Source: Anadara kagoshimensis (taxonomy: Eukaryota; Mollusca; Bivalvia; Arcoida; Arcidae). From it: a stretch of DNA of 64,000 nucleotides. A program made the translations under genes and the position numbers. Under the pieces are notes generated by a model. It saw only the letters and a list, made by a program, of their open reading frames with translations. It made no database searches and was not told where the DNA came from. The stretch covers positions 67,869,260 to 67,933,259 of the forward strand of contig CM037870.1 of the NCBI GenBank assembly GCA_021292105.1. Reading direction: 5' to 3'. Positions 6,701 through 35,209 of the stretch are shown here, piece by piece (the stretch's first letter is position 1; each line of letters begins with the position of its first letter).

Positions 6701-7893
6701 CAGTCGACTCTCGAAATTGAAGGGATTGGATGAAAAAATTCGATTTATCCGAATTTCGAATTAACCGTTTTGATCACTGACGGACACTTCAGAACGATGA
6801 TAACGGGAGATAACTCAATAGTAAAGCATTTTGAATTTTTCTATGTTAATGTAAAGCTTAACAAACTAAAGTTTGACCACGTTCTGTAAGCAATAAATAA
6901 GTAAGTCGGAAAATGCACTGTAACTTACAATATTCCATTGATATTTTCCGTTACACACGGATTATGGCGAGGCCAAAAAAAGTCTTGAAAAAACTTCACC
7001 GTAACTTACAAGGTTCCATTGAAGTTTCCCCAGTGCTAGCGATTCTCAATTGAAGAATTGTTTTATCAATTTACACCTTTTCCCTACGACCGATCTAGAT
7101 CTAGCTATACTAGTAACTCCTGTCAGAATTCATTAAATTTTGTTCATAAGCATAATTTCTTCATCCGTAATCCTAAGCGTCTGACTTTGGTGATTTTTAA
7201 AATCACAGTTTGTCATGTCACACACCTGTAGTAGCTGAATGGTGTAAACATTGCCTTGATAGATCAAAGAAGTTTCGGCGTGTCGATTAGCTTTGGGTAT
7301 TCTGTGGAATAGAAGACCCACTCTATAATTTAAACCAATGAAATTTCTCCTCTTACTGACTGACATTTTACTTATGACCGGTATGTCGAGTACAAATTGA
7401 AAATCGTGAAAATAGCACGGGATGCCGACTTTCTTTTTATTGGTATTTTTAGTCGGAAATGAATCTTCCGAGTAAGCCGTCATTCTGTTACTGTAAACAC
7501 ATTTTAAATAAGAGATGAAGTAATTATTTGAGGTATTGTTCAAGTTTAAGATAGAATATTTTTGTGTATTTTTTTTATTTTGCCGCTTGTTGTATAAACA
7601 TTCAAAAGTATAAACAAGGAAAGTATATTTCGATTAAAACTTTAGATTTTCATTATATTTCGTATTAGATTGGACTGAAAATTGATTTCGATTTAAACGT
7701 TGGAATTTTGGTTATATTTCGTAATTTGGACTGAAAATTCACCTCGAATTAAGCAAAATTTCGAATTTCGGTATTTCGAATTAAACACACAAATTCACAT
7801 AGAAATACATAGCGATCTGACGGGACCATTTGTATCATTTCGATTTAAGCGAAATTTCGATTCAACCGATTTCGAATTAACGAGAGTCAACTG
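6701..7893 (+). mobile_element. pogo/Tigger-like DNA element, copy 1 (non-autonomous)
   Basis: The left end is CAGTCGACTCTCG and the right end CGAGAGTCAACTG, inverted and flanked by TA on both sides. Both termini hold many TTCGAATT/TTTCGATT palindromic motifs. A second copy, about 90% similar by eye and in the same orientation, is at 22526-23814. On the minus strand 7133-7543 is a 136-codon open frame beginning MNNTSNNYFISY; it is not recognised as a transposase. In copy 2 the corresponding frame is shorter. TA duplication with a CAG...CTG tip fits the Tc1/mariner-pogo group, where such elements are usually non-autonomous. Confidence 0.75.
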
Positions 7894-9107: not shown

Positions 9108-9287
9108 ATGGGTAGAGGAGGATTTAAAGATAAGAAAGAATATACCTGGGAGGAGATTAAAAAACATGACAAAAAAGATGACAGATGGCTGGTGATATCT
9201 GGAGAAGTATACAATATAACAAACTGGTCAAAACGACATCCAGGAGGACCTAGGGTCATCGGCCATTATGCTGGACAAGATGCTACA
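9108..9287 (+). CDS. FADS: Desaturase exon 1: cytochrome b5 domain
   Basis: Residues 1-60, with [14 protein letters not shown] and [13 protein letters not shown], form the haem-binding electron-donor domain. The donor is ACA|GTAAGT, phase 0. If the intron were retained the frame would stay open for 29 more codons and stop at 9375-9377, giving an 89-aa b5-only protein. Confidence 0.95.
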
Positions 9288-11498: not shown

Positions 11499-14400
11499 TG
11501 TATTTATAGATACCCGGTATTTATCAGTATAAAGTGGGAACAAGTGAGATAAATAGTGGCCTTCAATGTGTGAACATTTATTTATACCCCCGCTTAAAAA
11601 GTGGGGGGTATATATATTAGTGATAGGGGTGTCCGTCCGTCCTTCCGTTACACCTTAGGGTACCTATCTCATATCCGCAACTCCTCCTAAACCCTTCAAT
11701 GGATTTTCATGAAACTTTCACACAATCTTTGTGATATAATGTAGATGTGCACCTCCTATTTAAAGATTTGATCTGATGGATTTTTTATGCGGGGGGGGGG
11801 GGGGGGGGGTATTTTTTGTGAGCTTGTGGCTCACAGTTTTTCTAGTTCAGTACTGCTATTTAAATGTGGGAATATGTTTTAACTTTTATAGGGAGAATCT
11901 TGTGTCCACATCTAACCTACCCCTACTTTATTGCAAATAGTGTTTTTAGAGCATTTCAACTAACCTACAGTAACTGTAGATACAAGTTTTTTTCTCCACA
12001 TTGTTGGTTAAGAAAACTGAATTAATGTTATGTATACCATAGTTTTATGTTGTAAATTATTGGTTTAATTTTGTTTTGTATTTTTTCATCATATTTTTAG
12101 GATGCTTTTAGTGCATTTCACAATGATTTGAGTGAAGTACAGAAATATCTCAAACCAATACACATAGGAACAGTTTTACAAGATGAAGATGAATCGGAAA
12201 TCAATACCGACTTCAGAAATCTCAGAGAAACAGCTGATAAAATGGTAAATATGCCACAGTTCAACCTGGCTCTCTTAACAGGGTTATATTTGGGGCGATA
12301 ATGGGTCCCATTCACAATTTAAAATCTCTTTTGTTCAGAAATATTGAGCTGGTTTTCACAATTCAAAAAACATAAAAATGGCAAAATAAATTGAAATAAA
12401 AATAAATCCATGTCAAAAGTCAACCTGGAAACAAATAAAACTTAAGCCCCATTTATACGGCGAAAATTGCATACCTAAGTATTTTTACTCACATGTAAAA
12501 TTACTCATGTAAGCAAAAGTATATTTTGCTTTGCGTTCATACATAATTTATGTACCATAAGTAAATTTGAAGTTTTCAACAAATTTTGGATAATTTTCAT
12601 TGTGAACATTGAACAGTTTAGACTTGATTAATATCAGATAACGTTTCCTTACTATTTAAGCACTGATTTGATACTGGGCTATTATAATGACAAAGTAGCA
12701 GTTCTACTTGGTGATCCAGCATATCTGTCATATACCATTTTTTGAATTTAATAATAAAATACAATAAAAAATGTTATATGACATATCCTTTAAAGAATTG
12801 TTTTCTCAAGCTTTATATCTTACACCAATGCGGAGCACATTTATATACCGTCTAGTTAGGGTAGAACGACACTGGATCTTTGATCTCATTGAGTTGCTTG
12901 AAATGCCCATTGTGATTTTTCCAAAAAAGGATTGATGTCCATGTCCTGTTTGCTTGTTCTGTAAAAGGAGCTTGTGTTGTTCCGCATAACATATATCAGA
13001 TATGTAGATTAGCCCATGTCTCCTAAAACCCAGTCTGGGCCCCAAACTGTTTACACATTTTAGCTATTTATTACATTAAAACTTCTTTTTTAACTGGGCT
13101 GGACCCCTAACTCAAATTAGTTTCATCCCTGCAAATTAGTTCTTTAGGATCGGTCGAATGTTTTTATTGAACTTGATGGTGAAAATTATTTCAGTGATGT
13201 TGAAAATGATGCTTGTAATATTTGTTCTCCCAAAACACTTCGTGACGACATGGCATCTCCTTTCATGGACACCTCATTGTCAGATTTGTAAAAGTAAATT
13301 TTCTGTGGTTGGCTTTTGTTGCTCAAGCACTTTCTCTTTTCTCTTTGAAAACTAGAAAAACGTCAAATTTTAGTGACAGTTTGTCACTAGTTTTTATGCT
13401 TTTGTAAAATAAATCTATTTCAATTACAACTTTTCATCTTTATTGGATAATTATAACAAATCAATGGGGGCCGTGGTGGTTAATAGTGGTTGGCTTTAAC
13501 CGCTATGAGTTAGATCCCCGATTCTAACACCATATGTGGTGAGTAGGTTTCCCTTACAATTGGCACCTGTTGGTTAGCTCGATGTCAATACAATGGGATG
13601 TATGTAATGTTAATCTGTGACATTGTATATCAACACTATTAAACAAATTTTCTAGTACAAGACATATTACACACACCCATATTCACCCCTGCACCACATG
13701 GACCTGAATGAACATTAACCCATAGAGATAAATAACCTGGCATAGGTACATGTGTTTAAAATTATGTGAGTAAATATTACTGTGCGTTCATACGACACTG
13801 AAGCAAAATTTGCATACCTAAGTATAAAATACTCACATACTATAGCAAATTTGCACTTGGTCCCCACTAGGTGCAAATTTACTTACATGAGTAAAATTTG
13901 CGTATATGCAAAGTTGTTCATACGACACAATTTGCATATGTGAGTAAATTTACACATGAGTAAAAAATACTTAGGTATGCAATTCTCGCCGTATAAATGG
14001 GGCTTTACATACATTATCAACAGATGTGTCCACGCTGGATTTTGATGTGTACACTACAGTCATTGAAGTTGAATTAATTAAATTCATTGGACATTTACAT
14101 TTTCATCTTTCTGAATTTAGAAGACAAAAACAAATACTTTTTATTCCTGAAGTTTGTCTGTGCAATTTTGATTCTTAGATAGTTGACATATTTTCTGATT
14201 TTGTGTGTTTAATTTATTGTAGGGACTTTTTAAGCCAAGTTACTTTTTCTTCATGTTGATGTTAGCACATATACTGGCATTAGAGGTAATGGCTTATCTG
14301 ACACTGTACTACTTTGGTACAGGATGGGCACCGTTTGTAGCATCCATAATATTCTATTCCACCTGTCAGGTATGTATTAACACTATTTCAGTTTAATGTG

Positions 14401-17400
14401 AAAAAACCTCATTTCCAAATAAAAAACAGATAACTGCTTTTAGTTTAAACATGTATCTTGTTATGAAGGTCAAGACTTGTATATATGTGCATATCAAAAT
14501 TTTACAAGCAAGTTGAATACATAACTTCTGTGACAGCCAAAATGACTTAGGTTTTTACAGGTCTGACAACCTGCAGGAAAAAGGCCCAATGCCTGCATCA
14601 GGGATTCAAAATCGTGTTTTGTAATGGTAGGTCCACGACCTTTTGCTTTTATTTTTGGCAGGTCATACATAAGCTTTGAAAGTCCAGTATCATTATTGAA
14701 AGATTCATTTGCAATTATAATATCATATAGAAAAAAAGTATCTATTATCCTGAAAAAATGACAGGACCATCAGACTTTTAAAGTTTAATTATCAAGGATC
14801 CAAATGTAGATTCAATCTCAGACCTGGGGAATTTCGAATCTGCTGAAATGAAAACTTATATTAATTTTATAAGTTTTACCTTTGACATAACTTAACTAAA
14901 TATTTTCCCATTAGATTTTCAGCCAAAATGATATTAAGCAGCAGGTTTTCTCAATTTTATGGGCCCTGGACCCAGAACCAAAAATAGTTTTGTGACAGCC
15001 TGTGAGGATCACATTTACGTCATTTCAAACAAGAAAATATTGTAACAGTACATTTAGTTATATATTGTACATACCACACATTTATCGATACATTTATGAA
15101 ATATTGATGTGCATGTTCACACTTTTGACTGCAGGTATCAGAGTGGAGTAATGTGTTACACCCTAGACAAGATTCTTTCACTAATATGGAGCCAGTCAGT
15201 TCTTAAAAGATGGAGGATACAAGAGTACTCCAGAGAAAAAACACCTACCAAGGTCAAATGAGCTGACACACTTTCTCAGATTAGGATCTTCCTCTGCATT
15301 ATTTTTTCAGTTCATCAATCAGCTATAATCATGTCTTCCCTGTATATCCTACATTTCTACAAAGTTGGCACAAATGTAAACCAAAATATGAGGATTTACC
15401 ATGAACTTTGGTAAAATATGTAGATCAAAGTCACAAAACTGAAGCGAGCATGATCACTTTTCCTGTTGTTGTTAATTATGTAAAACAGAATAATATTGGC
15501 TAGGTACAGAGGTTCATAATCATATATGTGCCATAGACAGCGTGACACAGCCATAATTTCATGAGTTGTTGGCTCCGGGTTTGAGCACTAGCGGTGCTGA
15601 TTTGTATATACCAGTATGCTTGAGCAGGACATTTACTTTACTTTGCCCAGACAGTTGATAAACGTTTGTGTAGCTGGTAGCAGAAATGGTGGGAATTGCC
15701 TTGTGATGGAACGGCAGATCATTCTTTACAGTTTATTTTTAAAATTATGAATAGCCAAATTTCCAAAAATGAAAGTATTATCCTTTTTAAAGTATTTTTC
15801 ACAAATTTGCTAAAATAGGTTAATTTTTGAAAGAATTTCTCAGAAATTATTAGATTTTGGCTACCAGAGATAGAAACATGTAGATATTAAAGTGTTTAAA
15901 CAGTAAATCTGTTTGATATCAGTTTAGATCAAACAATGTTATTTTGAAATTTACATGTGGTATTTTCAAACCATGAAATTTGTTGAATTTATGCATTTAA
16001 AAGAGTTTTGTTATTAATTTTTATTAATTTTTTTTTTTATTTGAATAAAATTTTGCAGTATGATTTTTACTAGCTGATTTTTTTTTTTTTTTTTTCTATC
16101 TTATTTGAACTTAATTTGTACAACTAAACATGATCAATTTTTGTTCCTTCCTTCAGGCACAGGCAGGCTGGGCTCAACATGATTTTGGCCACTTGTCAGT
16201 CTTTAAGAACACCATAATTGACCATTTTTTACATTCCTTTACCATGGGTTTTATTAAGGTAATTTATTCTCTTTATATGTGGACTGTTATTGTTGTCTCA
16301 CAAAACCTGCATATTAATATTGTAACAAGAGTTATTTCCCTTTGATTAAACACAACTATTTATCGTATAAAACAAGATTTTTGAAATAATTTTTATATCA
16401 ACCTTTGATTAAAAAGATATTTAATGAGCAAAAAAGAAAAAAAAATATGTTGGAAATATTTTTCAAATTTTGGCTTATATTTTAAACAGTTGTAGCATGC
16501 CTAAAGGGAGATAACTCTTTGAATGTGGCCTCTGACAGAGGTTGGTTTATTTTTTTAGTAATGCTTTAATTTAATAGTGGTATGTCTTGTCAATGATTAT
16601 TTACAGGTACAGAATGGTTGGTTACAGCACGATTTTGGTCATTTATCTGTATTTCATCACAGGATATGGGACAAAGTTTTCCAATATTTTATTTTTGGAT
16701 TTATCAAGGTATTTTTGTTGCATGGTGTGGTTAGAAATGGAGCAAAAACTGCAAATTTTTCCATCTTAATCCACTCTCCAGTAGTCAAAACGCTTTATAT
16801 ATATGTGGTTAAGGTCTATATTTGTTTTACTATGTAAACAGCATGTAAACAGTTTTATTTCAGTGTATTTATGTACAGTTTCATTTTTGGATGGTTGTCA
16901 GATAACAGCAAAAGTCTATTTGAACCTGCCTGTATTTATATGTACCTTGCCATCAGATTCTGTACCTCCATTGGATTCTATATGATCTCAATACAACTCT
17001 TATTGGATCATGTATGGCCCATATCTGGTCTCCAGTGGACCTTGTCAAGTTCAGACAAAGGGGAAGATACCATATAATTTTGTATCACAAATTTGACATT
17101 TTGTGTAATACAGTGGACTTTTTTCACCGCAAGCCTGACAGAAATCCTTAAATGAGACATTGACTGGAACATTGTCACATTTGAATTTAAAAGTTTGTTA
17201 AAATTGAATGATCCTTCTTCAGCATAAAAACTTTATGGAATAATCCAAAACACAGATAGTGTCATCCTTCTTCACTTGAATATAACTGTTTACTGAATGT
17301 ACATGTATGTCGTCTACGTAGTTGTGTGTGTTCATGTTATATATACAGTAAAACCTTATCATGATGCCTCTGGATAAACATGACACTTTCATTATTGCTA

Positions 17401-20400: not shown

Positions 20401-23400
20401 TTTAGCCTCTTATTAATGTTTTATGAAATGGGATTGCCCACATACCACTTGATAAATACCCCTTTAACGATTTTGTGGAGGTTTTGGAAAATGTTAACAT
20501 CAGAAATTCCCAGGATTAAGATGGTTTTTATGGGAAAATTTTAACTGATTTGATTCCACATCCATTGAAAATAATTGTCCCACACAAATGTTTCGGGATA
20601 TCACATAGAGTACTAGATTTCTGATTCTGTAATGTTTTTCCTTGTTTATATTAAGGGTGCATCACCACATTGGTGGAACCACATGCATTACCAGCACCAC
20701 GCCAAACCTAATGTTGTAAGTATATACTTCATAATTAAAATGATTGTTTTTATACTGTAAATACATGTAATGAAATTTTCATCAAGATAGATGCACAAAA
20801 TTATTTACGCTCTATTGAATGATGATCACTACAAATGCAAGTGAATTATATTAAAAAAAACAATATTCCAAAAAGTTTCATTTTCATGTCATGTTACAAA
20901 TTTATGTGAAAATAAAACGATTGCGAAATGTTCCAGATTCACAGTAATTTGCTGCTTTAATTGCGGTCTCAAATCATCTTATCTAAACATCAATACATTT
21001 TTCGATGCCTATGTGCTAAAATCTGGTTAAACAAAAAGTGGCAATAAATCAAGGTTTTACTGTGTTTATGCGATTCTTACAGTGCTTCTATTTACTGGTG
21101 CTAGATAATTCTGAATTTTGTAAATGTAAAGTATAACCTCCGGAAACCGAACCCTTTGAAAACCGAATTCCTGTCAAAACCGGCTGGATCCGTCGGTCCC
21201 AGAGTTTTTACCCTTTATTCTATATGTTAAAAACCTTGATAAACCGAACCCTGTGAATTCTGAATACTGACCAATTTTTTCAGGAAAAACCTGTTTGGTA
21301 TTCAATATTTGACCTGTGAAAAACGATGGTTGTTTTTCAAGTTGCATCTTTAAAAATGAAAAGTTATGCGATAATTTTATGTGATTTATCAATCGGATAA
21401 AAAAAAATACATTAAAGGTTTATTTTATAAAAATGTACTGTGGAAAATTACACACATCAGGAAGTATAACCTCTCTACTTCTTTTGGCACTCAGGTATTC
21501 CCTACATTTCTGAGACTATTTTGATGAGTTTTACTGTGATTAAACCAGTTTTACTAACGCTAGATCATTATGAAGTTGATATAATTGTTTTGGCACTCTG
21601 GTATTCTCTACAATTCAGACACTTTGATAAGTTACACTTGATGTTGGCATTAGATTGATTGAAGTTGTACTATTGTTTTATAGATGGATAAAGACCCAGA
21701 TGTAAGAGTAGAGAAGTTGTTTGTAGTTGGAGATGTGATGCCAGTAGAGGTTAGTACATACGTTTACTATATGTCAATGGGGTTTTTCTGTTCTTAAGAT
21801 CTTGTGAAAAAAATTCCTTGTTTTCAAGTTTCTTTTCTTTTATTTCGATGTTGTGATGTGACAGATAGTGAAAATGCAACTGAAATCTGTTAAATTTTAA
21901 TCTATGCACATTTTGATGTGTGTTTCTAGAAACCGGACGTATTGTGGCAAGGTGTTGTCCATCCTTCTTTCCATCATAATTTGTCAGAGCTATTCCTCCA
22001 AAACCGTTGAAATTACCTACTAAACATGGTTTACATGATTGCCACGATATGACATTGTTTGTACCAGAAGAGGAATTAACTCTGTACAAATTTCTCAGAG
22101 TTTTGCCCCTTTGAAATTTTAATCATGGGTGCTTTTTTAACCAACAGTTTAATGACAAAATATAAATGGGGTATGTACTATAATCTTGTTACACCTATTG
22201 GTGTTCTTGTTTATTCCAAAAACTCATTTTTGTATCTTTTTACTCTCACTTAATGTTAATATTGTTTAACTATTTCTGTCTTGACTGTAAGAATTTTTCT
22301 TTTTTTCTTTCCCTTATCCAGGTTGCTAAGAAGCAGAAGAAATCCATGCCCTACAACCATCAACATAAGTATTGGTTTATAGGTGAGTTATGTATTTCAA
22401 ATCTTAATATCACTCTTTATATGATTTTTTTTGGACTGAATTAATTTAATGAACTGTTCAAGTGTTAATGGTTCCATGTTGGCGTATGGAAACTCCACAA
22501 ATAGTCCAAATTAATATTTGATATACAGTCGACTCTCGTTAATTCGAAATTGAAGGGATCGGATGAAAAATTTCGATTTATCCGAATTTCGAATTAACCG
22601 TTTTGATCGCCGACGGATGATAAAGGGAGATAACTCTAATAGTAAATCACTCCTCCATTGATGTCACGTGTATGCTGTTACATATTATGGTGTATCGCTT
22701 ACGATTAAAAATCATTTTGAATTTTTCTATGTTAATGTAAAGCTTAACAAACTAAAGTTTGACCACGTTCTGTAAGCAGTAAATAAGTAAGTCGGAAAAT
22801 GCACCGTAACTTACAAGATTCCATTGAGATTTTCCGTTAAACACGGATTATGGCGAGGCAAAAAAAAGTCTTGAAAAAACTTCACCGTAACTTACAAGGT
22901 TCCATTAAAGTTTCCCCAGCTCTAGCGATTCTCAATATTGAAGAATTGTTTTATCAAGATTTTTTAACAATTTACACCTTTTCCCTACTACCGATCTACA
23001 TATAGCTATACTAGTAACTCCTGTCAAAATTCATTAAATTTTGTGCATCATCGTAATTTATTCATCCCTAATCCTAAGCGTCTGACTTTGGTGGTTTTTA
23101 AAATCACAGTTTGTCATGTCACACACCTGTAATTAACACCTTCCAGACAGTAGCTGAATGGTGTAAACAATTTGCCTTGATAGATCAAAGAAGTTTCGAC
23201 CTGTCGATTAGCTTTGGGTATTCTGTGGAATAGAAGACCGCCCACTCTTTAAGTTTAAACCAATGAAATTTCTCCTCTTACTGACTGACATTTTACTAAT
23301 GACCGGTATGTCAAGTACAAATTGAAAATCGTGAAAATAGCACGAGATGCCGACTTTCTTTTTATGGGTATTTTTAGTCGGAAACGAATCTTCCGAGTAA

Positions 23401-26400
23401 GCCATCATTCTGTTACTAAATAAGAGATGGAGTAATTATTTCAGGTATTGTTCAAGTTTAAGATAGAATATTTTTGTGTATTTTTTTATTTTTTTTTTGC
23501 CGCTTGTTGTATAAACTTTCAAAAGTATAAACAATTAAGGAAAGTATATTTCGATTAAAACTTTAGATTTTCATTATATTTCGTATTAGATTGGACTGAA
23601 AATTGATTTCGATTTAAACGTTGGAATTTTTGTTATATTTCGTAATTTGGACTGAAAATTCACTTCGAATTAAGCAAAATTTCGAATTTCGGTATTTCGA
23701 ATTAAACATACAAATTTACATAGAAATACATAGCGGTCTGACGGGACCATTTGCATCACTTCGATTTAAGCGAAATTTCGATTCAACCGATTTCGAATTA
23801 ACGAGAGTCGACTGTAATTCTAACTAGGTCACTGTTGACATATTTTTTGTTACTAAACTCAAACTAGGTCACTATTAACACATTGTAAGTCACTGAATTC
23901 AAACTAGGTCACTGTTTACACATTTTAGTGACTTAAAACTAGGTCACTATTGACACATTATAGGTCACTGAATCTTTATGCATGCCTTTGGAATCTAGGT
24001 CACAATAACGGTCACTATATCCCTATTTATGATTTTGGAATGATATGAGTTTTATTTTGTTTTGTTTTTAGTTGGTCCACCAATGTTGTTCCCAGTATAT
24101 TTCCAGTTTATGTTATTTAGACATATATTTACCAGAAAGCTGTGGGTGGTAAGTATTCTCAATATACACTCTGGTTTCCTTCACCATTCCAGAACTGACT
24201 GTCTTGATTTAAGTCAAAGAATCTTGATTAAGCATGAAACACCATTCCTCCTCTTCACTGTACCTTTTTTATATACATGATCAAAAACTTTCAATTTTAA
24301 TGATCAAAAAGTGCCAAGGCTCTCGCAGGGTCATATTTGGGACCAATATTTGGTCCCATTCAAAATTACAATTTTATGGGTTTTTTTCACAAAGCTGATT
24401 TTAAAAATTTAAATTGACTGTAAAAATGTTAAAATTAGTCAAAATAAGACTGAATTAAAAATCAATCTTGAAACAAATAAAACTAATATATATTACTACT
24501 AACATGTAAGTTGATTACTAGCTAGTCTGGACCACTACGGTAGTGCAGCTGGTAGTGTTCTTGCTTGGTATTTGGAAAGTATTGGGTTTGAACCCTGGTC
24601 CAGGGTCTGACCGAGACTTGAAAATAGGAAGTGACTGTTCTTTTGCCAAGCACTCGGCATTTAAAAATGAAATTCATGGTCCTTCAGAATAAACCTTAGT
24701 GCCACACCTTCCCCGTGACAGTAGGCATGGAACATTAAAGAACACTCTTCACATTGCCCTTAGTGCACTACAAAGGTCAAATTGTGCTAGTTTACATATA
24801 GCTGGTGACTTTATGATATAAGTGAAATATTCTTGACTGGACCATAAAACTCCATTCAATCAATCATCAGCTGGTGTACTACTGATTATATTGTGACAGT
24901 GGTAAAGCTTTCGACATATTAGCTGTAGTTGTACTTTTTTAGGTGGGTAGAAATTTCCCTGGCTTTAAAAACGGTTTAATGTCATATATTAGTTTTTCTG
25001 ATACAGTTATTTTTTTCATTGTGTTTCATATTTTTCTTGAGAATTTTTGTGAGGATGACATTTTAACAAGTTGCTTATCTACTACTGGTGGTCAGAGAAA
25101 TCATTTGTTGGAACAGTTTTGGCTTTGACTGATGTGAAGCTCCACTCACATCCCTTTACACTCCAAAAAAGGTTCTGTTTGTGACGTCACACTCAGCCAT
25201 GTCACTTGAGCATCTCCATGAGGTTATGGTGATTGTTTTGATAAGGTGATAAGCAACAAAAATATCATTGTAAATATACTGTAAACCGCTTTATATTGGC
25301 GCATACTTATTTTAGCGATTGATGACTAGTAAACATATTAGCGCAGTTTAATTTTAGCGTAATCAATTCCCGTCTGAACTGTTTAATACATCTTTATATT
25401 GTCGTATTTTCTCGCCTAAAATCCACAACTTTTAGCCAAAAAATAAAATTTGAGAAAGGGATGCCAGGTTACAAGATAATCATAAAAATAACTATGTAAT
25501 GTTTGACTTTTACTGAGAAAATCTCCGTAACTGACCCAGGAAGTCACTAGACTGACAGATGTCTGCAGGAAGCTTTCATCATAATCTGGTCCTCTCGTCG
25601 ATTAGACATTTTACTGAATAAATATTTAAATCAATAATAACATATTTTGTTTTTATTCATTTAAATACCAACTAGTTTTTTTTACAAATGTTTCGACACA
25701 CTGTCGATGTATCCCCGATAACAGCCGCTTAGATCATTATAGAGGTCAATAATTAGGATTTATATTATGTTGCCGACACCACAGAAAAAAAAACAATTTT
25801 CGCATAACGGGTCTAATTTATTGATATAATTGTTAATATTTTAATGGTTGAAGCCAACTACTGGTAAATTAAAATTAATTACCTGAAAAGGTGACTTGTC
25901 AGATTGAACGTATCACATACAATGGCCAGTAATTAACAGCTATGCCAGTGTTCCCTAATTTATCCGTTTGTCGGTGGTCAGTCTACCGGGTCTGGGTAAT
26001 TAATCCCTAATTACTTATCATGTGCGGGTATATTGATGGAAGCCATACCAGTGTCATTCAGAACTATTATTATTTTAACACTAACTATATAACCATTTAA
26101 CGTGCGTCCATACCCATTCATAGTCACAGCCGTGATGTACAGTACTGACCTTTTTTTGTTGTAATTTTAGCGGCATTTTTATTTTAGCGCTGACACTCTT
26201 ATCGCCGATTGCGCTAAAATAAAACTGCCGCTAAAAAAACACGGTTTACGGTATATATATATACAATGTATAATGTTAATATTTAATTATTTACAGGATC
26301 TTATTGTGGTGCTAGCGTTTTACATCAAGTTTTTTGCACTGTACACTCCAATTCTAGGTCTAGGATGGACTCTAGTCTACTATGAAGTAATGAGGTAAGT

Positions 26401-28937
26401 AACCAACATTTTACATGTAGTTTCTAAAACAGCCTCTATGATGTACATGTGGAAATGTTCTACAATAGCACAAAAAATAACTTTGAACTACATGTAAATC
26501 TGTGTATTTATTGAAAAATATTTTTAAATAATATTTGTACATGTATTTATCTTGTTGATTCTTAAAAAAATTAATGCTGTTGATTGTGAACCAAATATGA
26601 TTTGATCCTGGCATTTAAAATACCAGGTGCTTATCCTGAATTACATGTACCGGTACATATATACACAGTAAAGGTGATAATTTTTTACTGGGGTGAAAAT
26701 TTAGCTATTTCTAAAATCTGCCATGGGTGTAATTTTCGGGTAACCTATATAAGTGGGTGTATATTCTATATATTATGATATATCAACCTATATGGTAGAA
26801 ATTTTCACATGGGTAAAACTTTCGTGGTAATTTCTTTAGCACAAAATAAGCCAAAATTTTACCCACAGGAAAATTCCCCCCTTTACCGTATTTATTTTAT
26901 GCCCTGGTCACCCATTTCTGGATCACCTGCCCAGTTCTACTCTATAAATTTCACAGTGAAAAGCCTATTTCCGTAGTTTGACATGGATTTGATAGATGCA
27001 CAACCATGGTGTAACTGTACTAGTATGTAATAAACTGTAACTAACTATAAAAATCTTGACTACTTCAGACTTAGGTTCAAAAACTGTTGTGGATAAATAA
27101 GTACTGCTATGTACATGTATGACTTTGAATGATTAGAAATGATCAGCTTACACTGAAAGCTACTGACCAATAAGATAACCACAAAGCTGATCCAGAGAGG
27201 TAATCTGTGAATGTGAGACCAGGGAATTGTAGGGTGATAAAAAAATAATTGGCTTACCTGAGGAGCACAATACAATGATAAACCAATAGATGTTGAATTT
27301 ATATACTTATTTTACAGGGTGATAGAAAGTCATTGGTTTACCTGGGTAGCACAGTCAAATCATATACCAATGGATGTCGATAATGATAAAGCTAAGCCGT
27401 GGTTAAAGCTACAAATGCATGCTACCTGTGATGTAGAGAAATCCTTCTTCAATGATTGGTTTACGGGTCATCTTAACTTCCAGATAGAGCACCAGTAAGT
27501 ATACTTAGTCAGTTATTATACCCCCTCCCACACCACCCCCACCCCCCACCACCACCACCATCTGTATACTACATTTATGTTTTATGTACATACCAGTATA
27601 TATAACAGTTTGTCAGTTTATTCGCCGAAGATGAGTGTTTTATCTAAGCACTCTGTTTTCTCCATCATCCCAAAAAGGCTGCCTCGATACTTATAAGTGA
27701 AATATTTTTAATACCATGTACCCACTCCAATCAGTGGTCTTAGACATAAGGCTTCCATGTTTACTAAAGTTTGTAAGGTTTATACATATGGTACTACACA
27801 AGACATTGTACAATGTAATACTATAACAAACAAATATTTCCAAAACATAAGATTGTATGGTATACAATGGCTAACAATGAAAAATTTGCTTCTGAAGTTA
27901 ATTGATTTCGATGTCAAGATTTTATATTCATTATGGAAATGTTATTAATTTTCTTTTTTGTTATGGAAAAATCAAGTACCGGTAGTTGGACATTTTGCAC
28001 ATTTCATAATTCATGAATTTAAATTAATGTTATATAACTTTGTATATTTCAGTTTGTTCCCCACAATGCCAAGACACAATTTATACAAGATAGCCCCACT
28101 TGTTGAGTCATTATGTAAGAAACATAATGTACCATATAAAGTTAAACCATTGTGGACTGCCTTCAGGGATGTAGTGACGTAAGTATTGTTAATGGTCTCT
28201 CCTTGTAGTACCATATAAGTATTTTAATTGTCTCCCCTTGCTGAAAGTTTCAATTTGGTTGAATGCTGTTTTACATCACATCAGTATTTTTGGCTATTCA
28301 GGACTAGATAATTATTCATTCATCTCAAGTGGTGCATAAGAGGGTCTAGGTAATCAAATGATCTAAATCATGCACTTACGGATCACAGCATCTCTCATTA
28401 GGACAGATATTAATGTGAGAAAGTTTGTCAGTTCAATTGCCAATGTTGTTTGGTTTCTTTTGTTTCTTCCGTCATTCCTGGACTGACTGCCTGGATATAA
28501 GTGAAAATTCTCGACTGGTGAGTAAATCGTCATAAAAAATTGTAAGATTGAATTGGTGCATTAGTGTACGTACAGATGTGATCCAATTTGTACTTGTGAA
28601 TACTTATTATGGGGGGGAGCTTTAGAGTGTTCAGGCACTTTGGCCGCATTACTGAAAGAGATGATACAAGAACTTCAAAATTAATCCATATGCTTTTTGT
28701 ACAACTATGCACTTGAAAGTTGTAAGGAATGAAGCAAAATTTATTCTGGCAACAATTGGTATTCTCTTCCAATGAACCTTTCCCAATTATACATTTTTCT
28801 CAGGTGACTGTAAATGCATATTGGCCTCTAAATTGCTTAATGTGTCACACTGAAATGTGTTCATTGTGTTTTTTAGGTCCTTGAAGCATGGTGGAGAATT
28901 ATGGGAGGCTGCTTACCATGCTCACCACTTGTCGTAA
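9108..28937 (+). CDS. FADS: Front-end fatty acid desaturase (cytochrome b5-fusion, FADS1/FADS2 family)
   Basis: The gene encodes a membrane desaturase that inserts a double bond between an existing one and the carboxyl end of a fatty acyl-CoA, in polyunsaturated fatty acid synthesis in the ER; Delta5 or Delta6 specificity cannot be read here. Coding exons: 9108-9287, 12101-12244, 14223-14369, then 16157-16258 or 16607-16708, 20656-20715, 21684-21749, 22322-22382, 24072-24148, 26297-26394, 27318-27494, 28053-28178, 28877-28937. All phases join to 432 aa (human FADS2: 444). An N-terminal cytochrome b5 domain has HPGG at 44-47 and the second haem histidine at 67 (AFH). The histidine boxes are HDFGH (165-169), HYQHH (202-206) and QIEHH (367-371); the Q in place of H in box three is the front-end signature. 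The last box is split by intron 10 (CA|T). The start was chosen because MGRGG leads directly into the b5 fold. Exon 4 is duplicated. Confidence 0.95.
9538..11024. repeat. ~590-bp direct duplication flanking a SINE (intron 1)
   Basis: Bases 9538-10133 and 10440-11020 are near-identical in the same orientation, offset by about 902 bp (for example CATACTGGGATCTGCTCAAG at 9543 and 10445, and TAAGATTCCATAATGAGC near 10085 and 10981). The 300 bp between them is a SINE. Several small indels and substitutions separate the copies. Confidence 0.85.
10138..10439 (+). repeat. tRNA-derived SINE between the duplicated blocks
   Basis: It has the same family body as 5786-6158: TGGTAGAGTGCTCGC, B box GGTTTCGAACCC (near-canonical), TTTTGCCAAGCACCATTCATT, and the final GTCTTGTTATAAGTAAA. 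Confidence 0.75.
11081..11235 (+). repeat. Dispersed ~150-bp repeat (GCCAAATTTC...TTTGGCTACC family)
   Basis: The order is GCCAAATTTCTAAAAATT, a block like AATGTATTTTCCCTAGATTTGG, then TTTCTCTGAAATGAGTAGCCAATG and GGCTACCTGGAATGGAAA. Same-strand relatives lie at 15738-15880, 18795-18945 and 19468-19612. Confidence 0.6.
11465..11498 (+). repeat. (TC)n microsatellite
   Basis: About 34 bases of TC dinucleotides with one TTC interruption, in desaturase intron 1. Confidence 0.95.
11583..11846. repeat. Molluscan CCCCCGC...GGGGG repeat with a poly-G tract
   Basis: It starts TATACCCCCGCTTAAAAAGT with its complement GTGGGGGGTATA close by, then GTCCGTCCGTCCTTCCG, and ends at GCTCACAGTTTTTCTAG. A run of 19 G lies at 11791-11809. 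A related fragment is at 50152-50310. This type is common in bivalve genomes; no coding content. Confidence 0.65.
12101..12244 (+). CDS. FADS: Desaturase exon 2: end of cytochrome b5 domain and linker
   Basis: Residues 61-108. It begins DAFSAFH, giving the second haem ligand at residue 67, and ends NLRETADKM. Acceptor ATATTTTTAG, donor ATG|GTAAAT, phase 0 on both sides. Confidence 0.95.
12262..12436 (+). repeat. Dispersed repeat shared with 24305-24487
   Basis: Shared blocks include CTCTCTTAACAGGGTTATAT versus CTCTCGCAGGGTCATATT, then GGTCCCATTCA, and the end GGAAACAAATAAAACTTA. A weaker relative is at 6222-6290. No coding content. Confidence 0.5.
13148..13291 (+). pseudogene. Exon-like open segment with stop and poly(A) signal inside the Harbinger-like element
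   Basis: After an acceptor-like TTCTTTAG the frame [15 protein letters not shown]... runs 47 codons to a TAA at 13289-13291. AATAAA follows at 13408-13413. The composition is acidic and protein-like ([20 protein letters not shown]). It may be the last exon of the element's own second protein or a captured host exon. It is not similar to anything I recognise. Confidence 0.35.
13465..13640 (+). repeat. tRNA-derived SINE nested in the Harbinger-like element
   Basis: It opens GGGGCCGTGGTGGTTAATAG, followed by GTGGTTGGCTTTAACCGC and a B-box-like TAGATCCCCGATTC. This is a typical Ser/Leu-tRNA-like SINE head (gtGGTTAA anticodon-arm pattern). It is not a functional tRNA gene because the stems do not pair well. 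Confidence 0.6.
14223..14369 (+). CDS. FADS: Desaturase exon 3: first transmembrane hairpin
   Basis: Residues 109-157. [20 protein letters not shown] and the following [12 protein letters not shown] are the first two membrane segments. Acceptor TTTATTGTAG, donor CAG|GTATGT, phase 0. Confidence 0.95.
14370..16156. other. Desaturase intron 3
   Basis: No coding sequence seen. A dispersed ~150-bp repeat copy lies at 15738-15880. Around 15550-15720 there is a SINE-like stretch (TTTGAGCACTAGCGGTGCTG, AGCAGAAATGGTGGG). A T-rich tract leads into exon 4a. Confidence 0.6.
16157..16258 (+). CDS. FADS: Desaturase exon 4a: first alternative histidine-box-1 exon
   Basis: It encodes 34 residues, [16 protein letters not shown] then [18 protein letters not shown]. 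It has acceptor TTCCTTCAG, donor AAG|GTAATT, phase 0 at both ends. The AQAGW opening matches vertebrate FADS2 best. It is the same length as exon 4b and 20 of 34 residues are identical, with the block from QHDF to LSVF invariant. Probably used as an alternative to 4b. Confidence 0.9.
16607..16708 (+). CDS. FADS: Desaturase exon 4b: second alternative histidine-box-1 exon
   Basis: It encodes 34 residues, [16 protein letters not shown] then [18 protein letters not shown]. It has acceptor ATTTACAG, donor AAG|GTATTT, phase 0 at both ends, 348 nt downstream of 4a. It is intact: all catalytic histidines are kept and no stops occur. The difference lies mainly after the box, in the stretch leading into the next membrane segment. 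Including both exons would keep the frame but duplicate the metal-binding box. Confidence 0.9.
16709..20655. other. Desaturase intron 4 (3.9 kb)
   Basis: No third exon-4-like copy (no further HDxGH-coding stretch) was found. It contains a MITE (17346-17782), two dispersed-repeat copies (18795-18945, 19468-19612), a run of 22 G (19854-19875) and a 47-bp tandem duplication near 20195-20290 (TTGAAGGGTTACTATCTCAG). Confidence 0.7.
17346..17782. mobile_element. 437-bp TA-flanked MITE
   Basis: The inverted tips CAGTAAAACC...GGTTTTACTG are flanked by TA on both sides. Homology beyond the tips is weak. It contains an inverted pair around 17590-17680 (GCACCTTTTACCTCTAA-like arms). Non-coding. Confidence 0.6.
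20656..20715 (+). CDS. FADS: Desaturase exon 5: histidine box 2
   Basis: Residues 192-211, [20 protein letters not shown], carry the HxxHH iron-binding box. Acceptor TATATTAAG, donor GTT|GTAAGT, phase 0. Confidence 0.95.
21125..21340 (+). repeat. Fragment of a DNA repeat with ACCGAA motifs
   Basis: TATAACCTCCGGAAACCGAA with repeated AACCGAA/ACCGGC motifs looks like one end of a TA-inserting element. TATAACCTCTCTAC recurs at 21466. A matching inverted right end was not found, so the boundaries are approximate. Confidence 0.35.
21684..21749 (+). CDS. FADS: Desaturase exon 6
   Basis: Residues 212-233. [17 protein letters not shown] follows the vertebrate order HKDPDV...FVLGE. Acceptor TTTTATAG, donor GAG|GTTAGT. 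Confidence 0.93.
22322..22382 (+). CDS. FADS: Desaturase exon 7
   Basis: It encodes [20 protein letters not shown], matching the LPYNHQHEYF block of FADS2. The donor ATAG|GTGAGT leaves phase 1. Confidence 0.93.
22526..23814 (+). mobile_element. pogo/Tigger-like DNA element, copy 2, in desaturase intron 7
   Basis: Its ends CAGTCGACTCTCGTTAATTC and GAATTAACGAGAGTCGACTG are a perfect inverted pair of at least 20 bp, with TA on both sides. At 1289 bp it is longer and has better-kept ends than copy 1. A shortened version of the copy-1 minus-strand frame sits at 23208-23408. Confidence 0.8.
23821..23975 (+). repeat. ~45-bp tandem repeat, about four copies
   Basis: AACTAGGTCACTGTTGACA-like units (23823, 23870, 23907, 23937) begin immediately at the right end of the transposon and stop before exon 8. 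The copies are diverged. Confidence 0.7.
24072..24148 (+). CDS. FADS: Desaturase exon 8
   Basis: It encodes [13 protein letters not shown] and [10 protein letters not shown], the cytosolic-to-membrane stretch matching IGPPLLIPMYFQY. Acceptor TTGTTTTTAG, donor GTG|GTAAGT. Confidence 0.93.
24305..24487 (+). repeat. Dispersed repeat shared with 12262-12436
   Basis: GCTCTCGCAGGGTCATATTT, GGTCCCATTCAAAATTA and the final GAAACAAATAAAACTAA match the intron-2 copy in the same order. Confidence 0.5.
24530..24872 (+). repeat. tRNA-derived SINE, most complete copy
   Basis: It has a B box GGTTTGAACCC, GACCGAGACTTG, TTTTGCCAAGCACTCGGCAT, GTGCACTACAAAGG, ATATAAGTGAAATATTC and a CATTCAATCAATCA tail. It lies in desaturase intron 8. 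Confidence 0.8.
25279..26251. mobile_element. 973-bp TA-flanked DNA element
   Basis: It has left end CTGTAAACCGC and right end CGGTTTACGG with TA on both sides. Both ends carry short ATTTTAGCG/CGCTAAAAT motifs (for example near 25312, 25355, 26164, 26190, 26212). No open frame of note. Non-autonomous Tc1/mariner-type is likely. Confidence 0.65.
26297..26394 (+). CDS. FADS: Desaturase exon 9: membrane segments
   Basis: It encodes [19 protein letters not shown] and [12 protein letters not shown], two hydrophobic spans before the C-terminal catalytic part. Acceptor TATTTACAG, donor AG|GTAAGT in phase 2. Confidence 0.93.
26666..26888. mobile_element. ~220-bp inverted-repeat MITE
   Basis: CAGTAAAGGTGATAATTTT at the left pairs with AAAATTCCCCCCTTTACCG at the right. 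Repeated TGGGTGTAATTTTCGGG-like blocks lie between. Target duplication unclear. Confidence 0.5.
27318..27494 (+). CDS. FADS: Desaturase exon 10: includes most of histidine box 3
   Basis: It encodes [40 protein letters not shown] and QIEH. The last histidine codon of QIEHH is split CA|T across the intron. Acceptor TTTTACAG, donor CA|GTAAGT. Confidence 0.95.
27600..27745 (+). repeat. SINE 3'-body fragment
   Basis: GTTTGTCAGTTTATTCGCCG, TGTTTTCTCCATCATCC and CTCGATACTTATAAGTGAAA match the conserved central/3' domain of molluscan SINEs. Another fragment is at 28400-28535 and one at 30690-30900. Confidence 0.55.
28053..28178 (+). CDS. FADS: Desaturase exon 11
   Basis: It completes QIEHH and continues [20 protein letters not shown], nearly identical to vertebrate FADS. 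Acceptor GTATATTTCAG, donor AC|GTAAGT. Confidence 0.95.
28877..28937 (+). CDS. FADS: Desaturase last coding exon
   Basis: It encodes [19 protein letters not shown] and TAA at 28935-28937, like the RSLKKSGKLWLDAYLHK end of FADS2. Acceptor GTTTTTTAG. Confidence 0.93.
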
Positions 28938-34585: not shown

Positions 34586-35209
34586 CAAACCCTTGACGAG
34601 TTCTGGCTAAACGTAGAAACCCTTGACGAGTTCTGGCTAACCGTACAAACCCTTGACAAGTTCTGGCTAACCATAGAAACCCTGGACGAGTTCTGTCTAA
34701 CCCCAGAAACCCTGGATCAGTTCTTGCTAACCGTAGAAACCCTGGATGAGTTCTGGCTAACCGTAGAAACCCTTGACAAGTTCTGGCTAACGGTAGAAAC
34801 CCTGGACGAGTTCTGGCTAACTGTAGAAACCTTTGACCAGTTCTGGCTAACCGTAGAAACCCTTGACAAGTTCTGGCTAACCGTAGAAACCCTTGACAAG
34901 TTCTGGCTAACGGTAGAAACCCTGGACGAGTTCTGGCTAACTGTAGAAACCTTTGACCAGTTCTGGCTAACCGTAGAAACCCTTGACAAGTTCTGGCTAA
35001 CCGTAGAAACCCTTGACAAGTTCTGGCTAATTGTAGAAACCCTGGACCAGTTCTGGCTAACCGTAGAAATCCTTGACAAGTTCTGGCTAACCGTAGAAAC
35101 CCTGGACAAGTTCTGGCTAACCGTAGAAACCCTGGACGAGTTCTGGCTAACCGCAGAAACCCTGGATGAGTTCTGGCTAAAAATAGAAACCCTGGACCAG
35201 TTCTGGCTT
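34586..35209. repeat. 30-bp minisatellite, ~21 copies
   Basis: The unit contains CTTGACAAGTTCTGGCTAAC and GTAGAAACC. Variation alternates between GACGAG/GACAAG/GACCAG, and blocks of three units recur (34781-34900 and 34901-35020 are nearly the same), so a higher-order period of about 120 bp exists. Because 30 is divisible by three it stays open on both strands (about 218 codons on plus). With no start context, splice sites or neighbouring exons it is judged non-coding. Confidence 0.95.

Follow-up and report, generated by a model that had tools for sequence, protein, structure and literature searches.

Two tandem versions of the histidine-box-1 exon, probably used as mutually exclusive alternatives, in a front-end desaturase gene of Anadara kagoshimensis

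The fourth coding exon of a front-end desaturase gene in Anadara kagoshimensis is present in two tandem versions, termed 4a and 4b, both of which are intact and under constraint, and a like exchange of this segment is seen among the proteins of related species. The two exons are probably a maintained, mutually exclusive pair, a reading to which we assign a probability of about 0.8. Each mature transcript would then carry either 4a or 4b, such that one gene would yield two full-length enzymes. These would have in common the cytochrome b5 domain, the rest of the membrane domain and histidine boxes 2 and 3, and would differ where the membrane helix with box 1 ends, in the turn that follows the box and in the helix toward box 2.

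The stretch of DNA analysed here, referred to as the window, comprises 64,000 nt of contig C14 of a 1.1-Gb genome and includes a complete desaturase gene of about 20 kb on its forward strand, from a start codon at 9108 to a stop codon at 28937. This gene has 12 coding exons when exon 4 is counted once, and every intron is of the GT-AG type (Table 1). Pfam placed domains PF00173 and PF00487 at residues 13-85 and 142-400 of the spliced protein, both above cut-off, with the cytochrome b5 domain, which includes the HPGG motif, fused N-terminally to the FA_desaturase domain; when Pfam was applied to three isolated exon pieces, no desaturase domain was matched. The histidine boxes of the spliced protein, namely, HDFGH, HMHYQHH and QIEHH, follow the HXXXH, HXXHH and QXXHH pattern. 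Judged by its sequence, the gene is thus a mollusc front-end (FADS2-like, 'clade A') fatty acyl desaturase, and a tree built without exon 4 places its product among oysters and mussels (SH-aLRT 88). Its 12-exon structure matches that reported, in the accessible part of the source, for clade A (C. gigas 2 and L. gigantea 2; Surm et al., 2015, PMC4550275), and the accessible part of PMC11677070 likewise describes one 12-exon FADS2 gene in C. gigas. Vertebrate FADS2 and FADS1 have an equal domain order and equal histidine boxes, according to Pfam, and the exon-4 segment aligns in frog and coelacanth proteins.

Table 1. Coding exons of the desaturase gene and the intron between the two versions of exon 4 (positions in the window).
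Feature	Position	Strand	Basis
Coding exon 1: start codon, part of cytochrome b5 domain	9108..9287	+	Pfam PF00173, spliced protein
Coding exon 2: remainder of cytochrome b5 domain	12101..12244	+	Pfam, spliced protein
Coding exon 3: first long helix, most of second	14223..14369	+	AlphaFold model of P0003
Exon 4a: histidine box 1 (HDFGH)	16157..16258	+	tblastn of whole window
Intron 4a-4b: 348 nt, GT-AG	16259..16606	+	
Exon 4b: histidine box 1 (HDFGH), diverged turn and next helix	16607..16708	+	Identical to P0003, 34/34
Coding exon 5: histidine box 2 (HMHYQHH)	20656..20715	+	
Coding exon 6	21684..21749	+	
Coding exon 7	22322..22382	+	
Coding exon 8	24072..24148	+	
Coding exon 9	26297..26394	+	
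Coding exon 10: histidine box 3 begins (QIEH)	27318..27494	+	
Coding exon 11: histidine box 3 ends	28053..28178	+	
Coding exon 12, including stop codon	28877..28937	+	

The two versions of exon 4 are each 102 nt long, have phase 0/0 and are bounded by AG and GT. With either of them the predicted protein is intact, with 432 aa and all boxes, and the PF00487 score is nearly equal (121.5 and 122.3 bits); the frame is kept in any case, inclusion of both giving 466 aa and of neither 398 aa. They share 66 of 102 nucleotides and 20 of 34 residues, with differences at first, second and third codon positions numbering 8, 7 and 21, and the block [10 protein letters not shown] and the exit GFIK are the same in both. 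Eleven of the 14 replacements fall at the 14 positions of residues 174-187, directly after box 1, and the other three, at residues 158, 160 and 163, precede it. At 11 of the 14 differing positions it is 4a that holds the commoner residue, and 4b is devoid of H180 and H183, of which 93 homologs have the former in 80% and the latter in 90%; at 183 scallop proteins, too, carry Q. The nucleotide similarity of 4a and 4b exceeds that of all 200 shuffles, and it does not extend into the 300-nt flanks, where the score was reached by 34 (upstream) and 150 (downstream) of 200 shuffles. No third copy of exon 4 was found by tblastn of the whole window.

Between 4a and 4b dN is 0.33 and dS about 3.1, that is, saturated, which implies that both copies have long been under protein constraint. 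When 36 random substitutions were placed on 4a in 200,000 draws of a neutral simulation, the reading frame stayed open in 33% of draws, was open with at least 20 matching residues in 3.5e-5, and the conserved block was kept in 5e-6, namely, one draw. A preliminary description of this DNA, made from the sequence, had given the same coordinates, lengths, phases and splice sites, exactly as found here, together with the 20 of 34 identical residues and the conserved block and exit. Its proposals that both exons were long maintained, that they are in-frame alternatives with common cytochrome b5 and C-terminal parts, and that joint inclusion keeps the frame are borne out as well, whereas its statement that change is concentrated after the box applies to residues 174-187 and not to the three changes before it.

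The preliminary description had also considered that the pair could be a collapsed haplotype difference. A second copy of the desaturase locus, 88-97% identical to that of the window in aligned pieces, lies 2.06 Mb away (C14:69.93-69.96 Mb), and in it 4a and 4b are again in tandem, unchanged and with their AG and GT sites. The presence of the tandem pair in both genomic copies shows that it did not arise by collapse of two alleles during assembly. Counting both exons, the coding sequences of the two copies differ in 14 silent and one replacement codons of 467, and the second copy could represent either an allele left uncollapsed or a duplication of recent date. The 4a-4b intron has no substitution in 348 nt between the copies, which we dropped as evidence because divergence along the locus is block-like, values of 0-0.2% being also met between 7 and 10.5 kb when scored in 500-nt steps.

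The doubling is not confined to this gene. Two parts of the window, one from about 6.8 to 36.4 kb and one from 44 to 45.5 kb, each occur twice on C14, near 67.87 Mb and again about 69.93 Mb, 2.06 Mb apart, with 88-99% identity and block-like divergence, the segment 44000-45500 being doubled at an offset almost equal to that of the desaturase locus. A paralogous desaturase gene is doubled too (26.66 and 29.01 Mb), with one exon 4 per copy, and a single locus tested on contig C1 is present in one copy. These doubled parts and the doubled second gene point to uncollapsed haplotypes or a recent segmental duplication. A 1.3-kb element at 22517-23823 of the window, whose 45-nt terminal inverted repeats are 82% complementary, is absent from the second copy of the locus; on its minus strand it has a reading frame similar to one at 7133-7633, and it thus looks like a mobile repeat. 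The window also holds, at 34587-35208, a tandem array of 20.7 copies of a 30-nt unit, with frames open on both strands.

To look at exon 4 beyond the window, we assembled the best 120 of 1604 homologs and one protein from a region-limited search, 121 in all, and aligned 122 rows, namely, 119 whole proteins, a trimmed P0028 and the two window isoforms, leaving out the 740-aa P0004. These proteins are representatives of 90% clusters, in which sister isoforms are hidden, and some are predictions. Fish P0004 aside, the best database relatives are P0003 (92%), followed by proteins of Magallana gigas (74%) and of Saccostrea (72%). We then scored 20 pairs less than 16% divergent outside exon 4 for an excess of change within it, which was found at p<0.05 in seven, the window pair included, where p-values are uncorrected over the 20 tests and pairs share members. 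The clearest case is that of Biomphalaria glabrata isoforms X1 (P0022) and X2 (P0030), both of 444 aa, which like the 4a and 4b proteins differ only in the exon-4 segment (17/34 within, 0/410 outside; p 1e-21), as expected of one gene with an exchangeable exon 4; box 1 of X2 is HDLGH instead of HDFGH, and its exon 4 groups apart from 4b. Excess was also found, at uncorrected p<0.05, for 4a against P0003 (14/34 within, 21/398 outside), for oyster proteins P0005/P0006 (12/34, 37/399) and P0006/P0050 (11/34, 37/357), and for mussel-like P0015 (Mytilus trossulus) and P0123 (11/34, 19/211), with a weak case in P0055 (Bradybaena) and P0056 (11/34, 61/410; uncorrected p 0.012). The oyster and mussel-like pairs cross species or samples, and thus speak for divergence limited to the exon rather than for two exons per genome. 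No exon-4 excess was seen in the other 13 pairs, which include scallop and venerid ones and frog P0119/P0121 (3/34, 45/411), the sole testable vertebrate pair and the only one tested that is known to be non-mollusc, nearly all others being from molluscs. The Biomphalaria isoforms and the exon-limited divergence in oyster and mussel-like proteins lend outside support to the reading of 4a and 4b as alternatives.

A region-limited homolog search with 4b gave four matches among four candidates, while that with Biomphalaria X2 matched itself only. Among the database proteins, P0003 differs by 5% outside exon 4 from the window protein and bears 4b with 34 of 34 residues; as its contig does not exceed 4,762 nt, compared with the roughly 20 kb of the gene, it probably stems from a spliced transcript. 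Exon 4 is absent from four of the 121 proteins, all of 399 aa (M. gigas twice, C. virginica and M. galloprovincialis). The entries without box 1 at 399 aa from oysters and a mussel, plus a 426-aa oyster entry missing the first residues of exon 4, are P0025, P0026, P0027, P0075 and P0007, and these entries are possibly isoforms that arise from exon skipping, or annotation by-products, as where annotation failed to settle on one version.

The AlphaFold model of P0003, which has 4b, is confident (mean pLDDT 90.9). Exon 4 corresponds in it to residues 158-191 and ends the long helix 143-168, with box 1 at 165-169, after which a turn and the helix 176-191 lead to the box-2 helix. The model of Biomphalaria X2, also confident (pLDDT 86.0) and with a further type of exon 4, has the same elements, with helices 153-178 and 186-200, which suggests that the exon is a structural unit containing box 1. 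The second helix is more amphipathic and more basic in 4b than in 4a (moment 0.52 versus 0.36; charge +2 versus 0). Among solved structures, searches by sequence gave matches in the cytochrome b5 part (51 of 51 in one search, the 60 listed of 65 in another), and Foldseek gave 8xks_K as the PDB match with the best E-value (1.8e-5; 13% identity, TM 0.51), no stearoyl-CoA desaturase being among the best 50 of its 120 PDB matches. Most likely, the two versions would hold the acyl chain or its carrier differently near the di-iron site, which would tune substrate choice or activity and leave the chemistry unchanged, as the box-1 residues are identical in 4a and 4b.

As to how the choice between 4a and 4b would be made, no feature that forces exclusivity was found in the sequence when intron length, splice types, frame, donors and pairing were considered. 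At 348 nt the intervening intron seems long enough to be spliced and beyond the range in which steric exclusion operates, and the splice types match, all being GT-AG. Weak donors were dropped as a mark of regulation, as by U1 pairing energy those of 4a and 4b are middling (5th and 7th of 12). Docking of RNA by intronic complementarity, for which the preliminary description had suggested looking, gave nothing that we take as a signal in a test with one sequence and, for each intron pair, five shuffles and one reversed control, neither pair being clearly above its controls. The best pairing of intron 3 with the 4a-4b intron had -52.5 kcal/mol (shuffles -47.0 to -59.6, four of the five being lower; reversed -48.6), and that of the 4a-4b intron with intron 4b-5 had -51.0 kcal/mol (shuffles -48.6 to -50.5; reversed -52.5). 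The earlier interpretation is supported for the alternatives, their maintenance, the shared parts and the frame, and the switch of substrate or regioselectivity that it raised would be a possible consequence of exclusive use. As none of the features considered enforces exclusivity, regulation is likely to be by splicing proteins, and we infer that such proteins, acting at the splice sites, probably choose between 4a and 4b.

Three other accounts of the pair need to be weighed against two alternative enzymes of differing preference. That a single exon is in use, 4b in this lineage, with the other surviving as a relic that looks conserved or being spliced at trace level, would fit the fact that the sole protein found from a close relative has 4b and that none of the 121 proteins is a 4a protein from such a relative. 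However, 4a is open, has its AG and GT sites, holds most of the commoner residues and is unchanged in the second copy, and neutral change to a like distance almost never spared the conserved block, so that we consider this account improbable. Even less probable is a cassette system, with proteins of 466 aa or 398 aa from inclusion of both exons or neither. The frame would survive in either case, and the 399-aa entries from oysters and a mussel resemble the shorter form, yet a protein without exon 4 would lose the box-1 histidines, and two box-1 motifs occur in one of the 121 proteins only, fish P0004, which means that double inclusion is not seen among them. The third account accepts exclusive use and differs on its consequence, namely, that both enzymes are equally active and the choice serves regulation, of expression level or stability, rather than substrate. 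The identical catalytic block speaks for it, as would two abalone desaturases, possibly a comparable pair, which the title of a paper by Li from 2013 reportedly names as both delta-5; the clustering of the changes directly after box 1 speaks against it, and we hold it to be a serious possibility that somewhat more probably fails than not.

Whether the pairs of different molluscs go back to one duplication was addressed with a tree of exon 4, built from 41 rows chosen from the 122 and 34 columns. In this tree 4b groups with P0123, P0008, P0043, Solemya and two mussel paralogues (SH-aLRT 86, bootstrap 72), and 4a and Mytilus P0015/P0070 fall elsewhere, whereas in the tree of the rest of the protein P0123 groups with P0015/P0070 (99). 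This conflict is as expected of an exon pair that predates the split of mussels and oysters, and constraining 4b, P0003, P0123 and P0008 together improved on the fit of the free tree by 7.5 log units. These three results suggest a single ancient origin, and they count against repeated, lineage-specific duplications, by which the oyster, mussel, snail and window pairs would not be one inherited pair. Nevertheless, we rate repeated duplications only a little short of an even chance: holding the oyster rows together improved the fit by 1.7 log units, and approximately-unbiased tests rejected neither 4a with 4b and P0003 (p 0.448), nor the mussel-like rows together (p 0.342), nor the Biomphalaria pair together (p 0.434). 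With 34 columns, separate duplications are thus not rejected (p 0.34-0.45).

Mutually exclusive exons that alter an enzyme are known from PKM, KHK and CYP4F3, which resemble 4a and 4b in that the exons are tandem and homologous and of like length and phase. Those swaps are backed by transcript proof and assays, while 4a and 4b are known from sequence. For the gene family considered here, no account of exchangeable exons was found in the full-text literature, subscription papers being mostly outside reach, which is in line with the preliminary description, whose author knew of none; the Biomphalaria X1/X2 isoforms are nevertheless already in public annotation. In the accessible part of PMC4550275, clade-A Fads are, like the pair in the window, near relatives paired within one species, and C. 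gigas 2/3, A. californica 3/4, H. discus delta-5 1/2 and N. melanotragus b/c are read as recent gene duplications, A. californica 4 being named 'isoform X5' in its table. From such names and from gene counts we infer that some of the published clade-A pairs may be exon-4 isoforms. An extension of this, which is speculative and on balance unlikely in full, is that one ancient duplication, shared across bivalves and perhaps by all molluscs, provides two enzymes of differing substrate or position preference, several of the published 'recent gene duplicates' being its splice isoforms.

The literature may thus have counted two genes where one gene probably makes two enzymes. If so, gene counts, qPCR primers, RNAi and yeast assays may mix or miss an isoform, and the pairs published as recent gene duplicates become cheaply re-testable. 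In addition, a natural pair of enzymes only 14 residues apart would help to map the part of a front-end desaturase that sets its preference.
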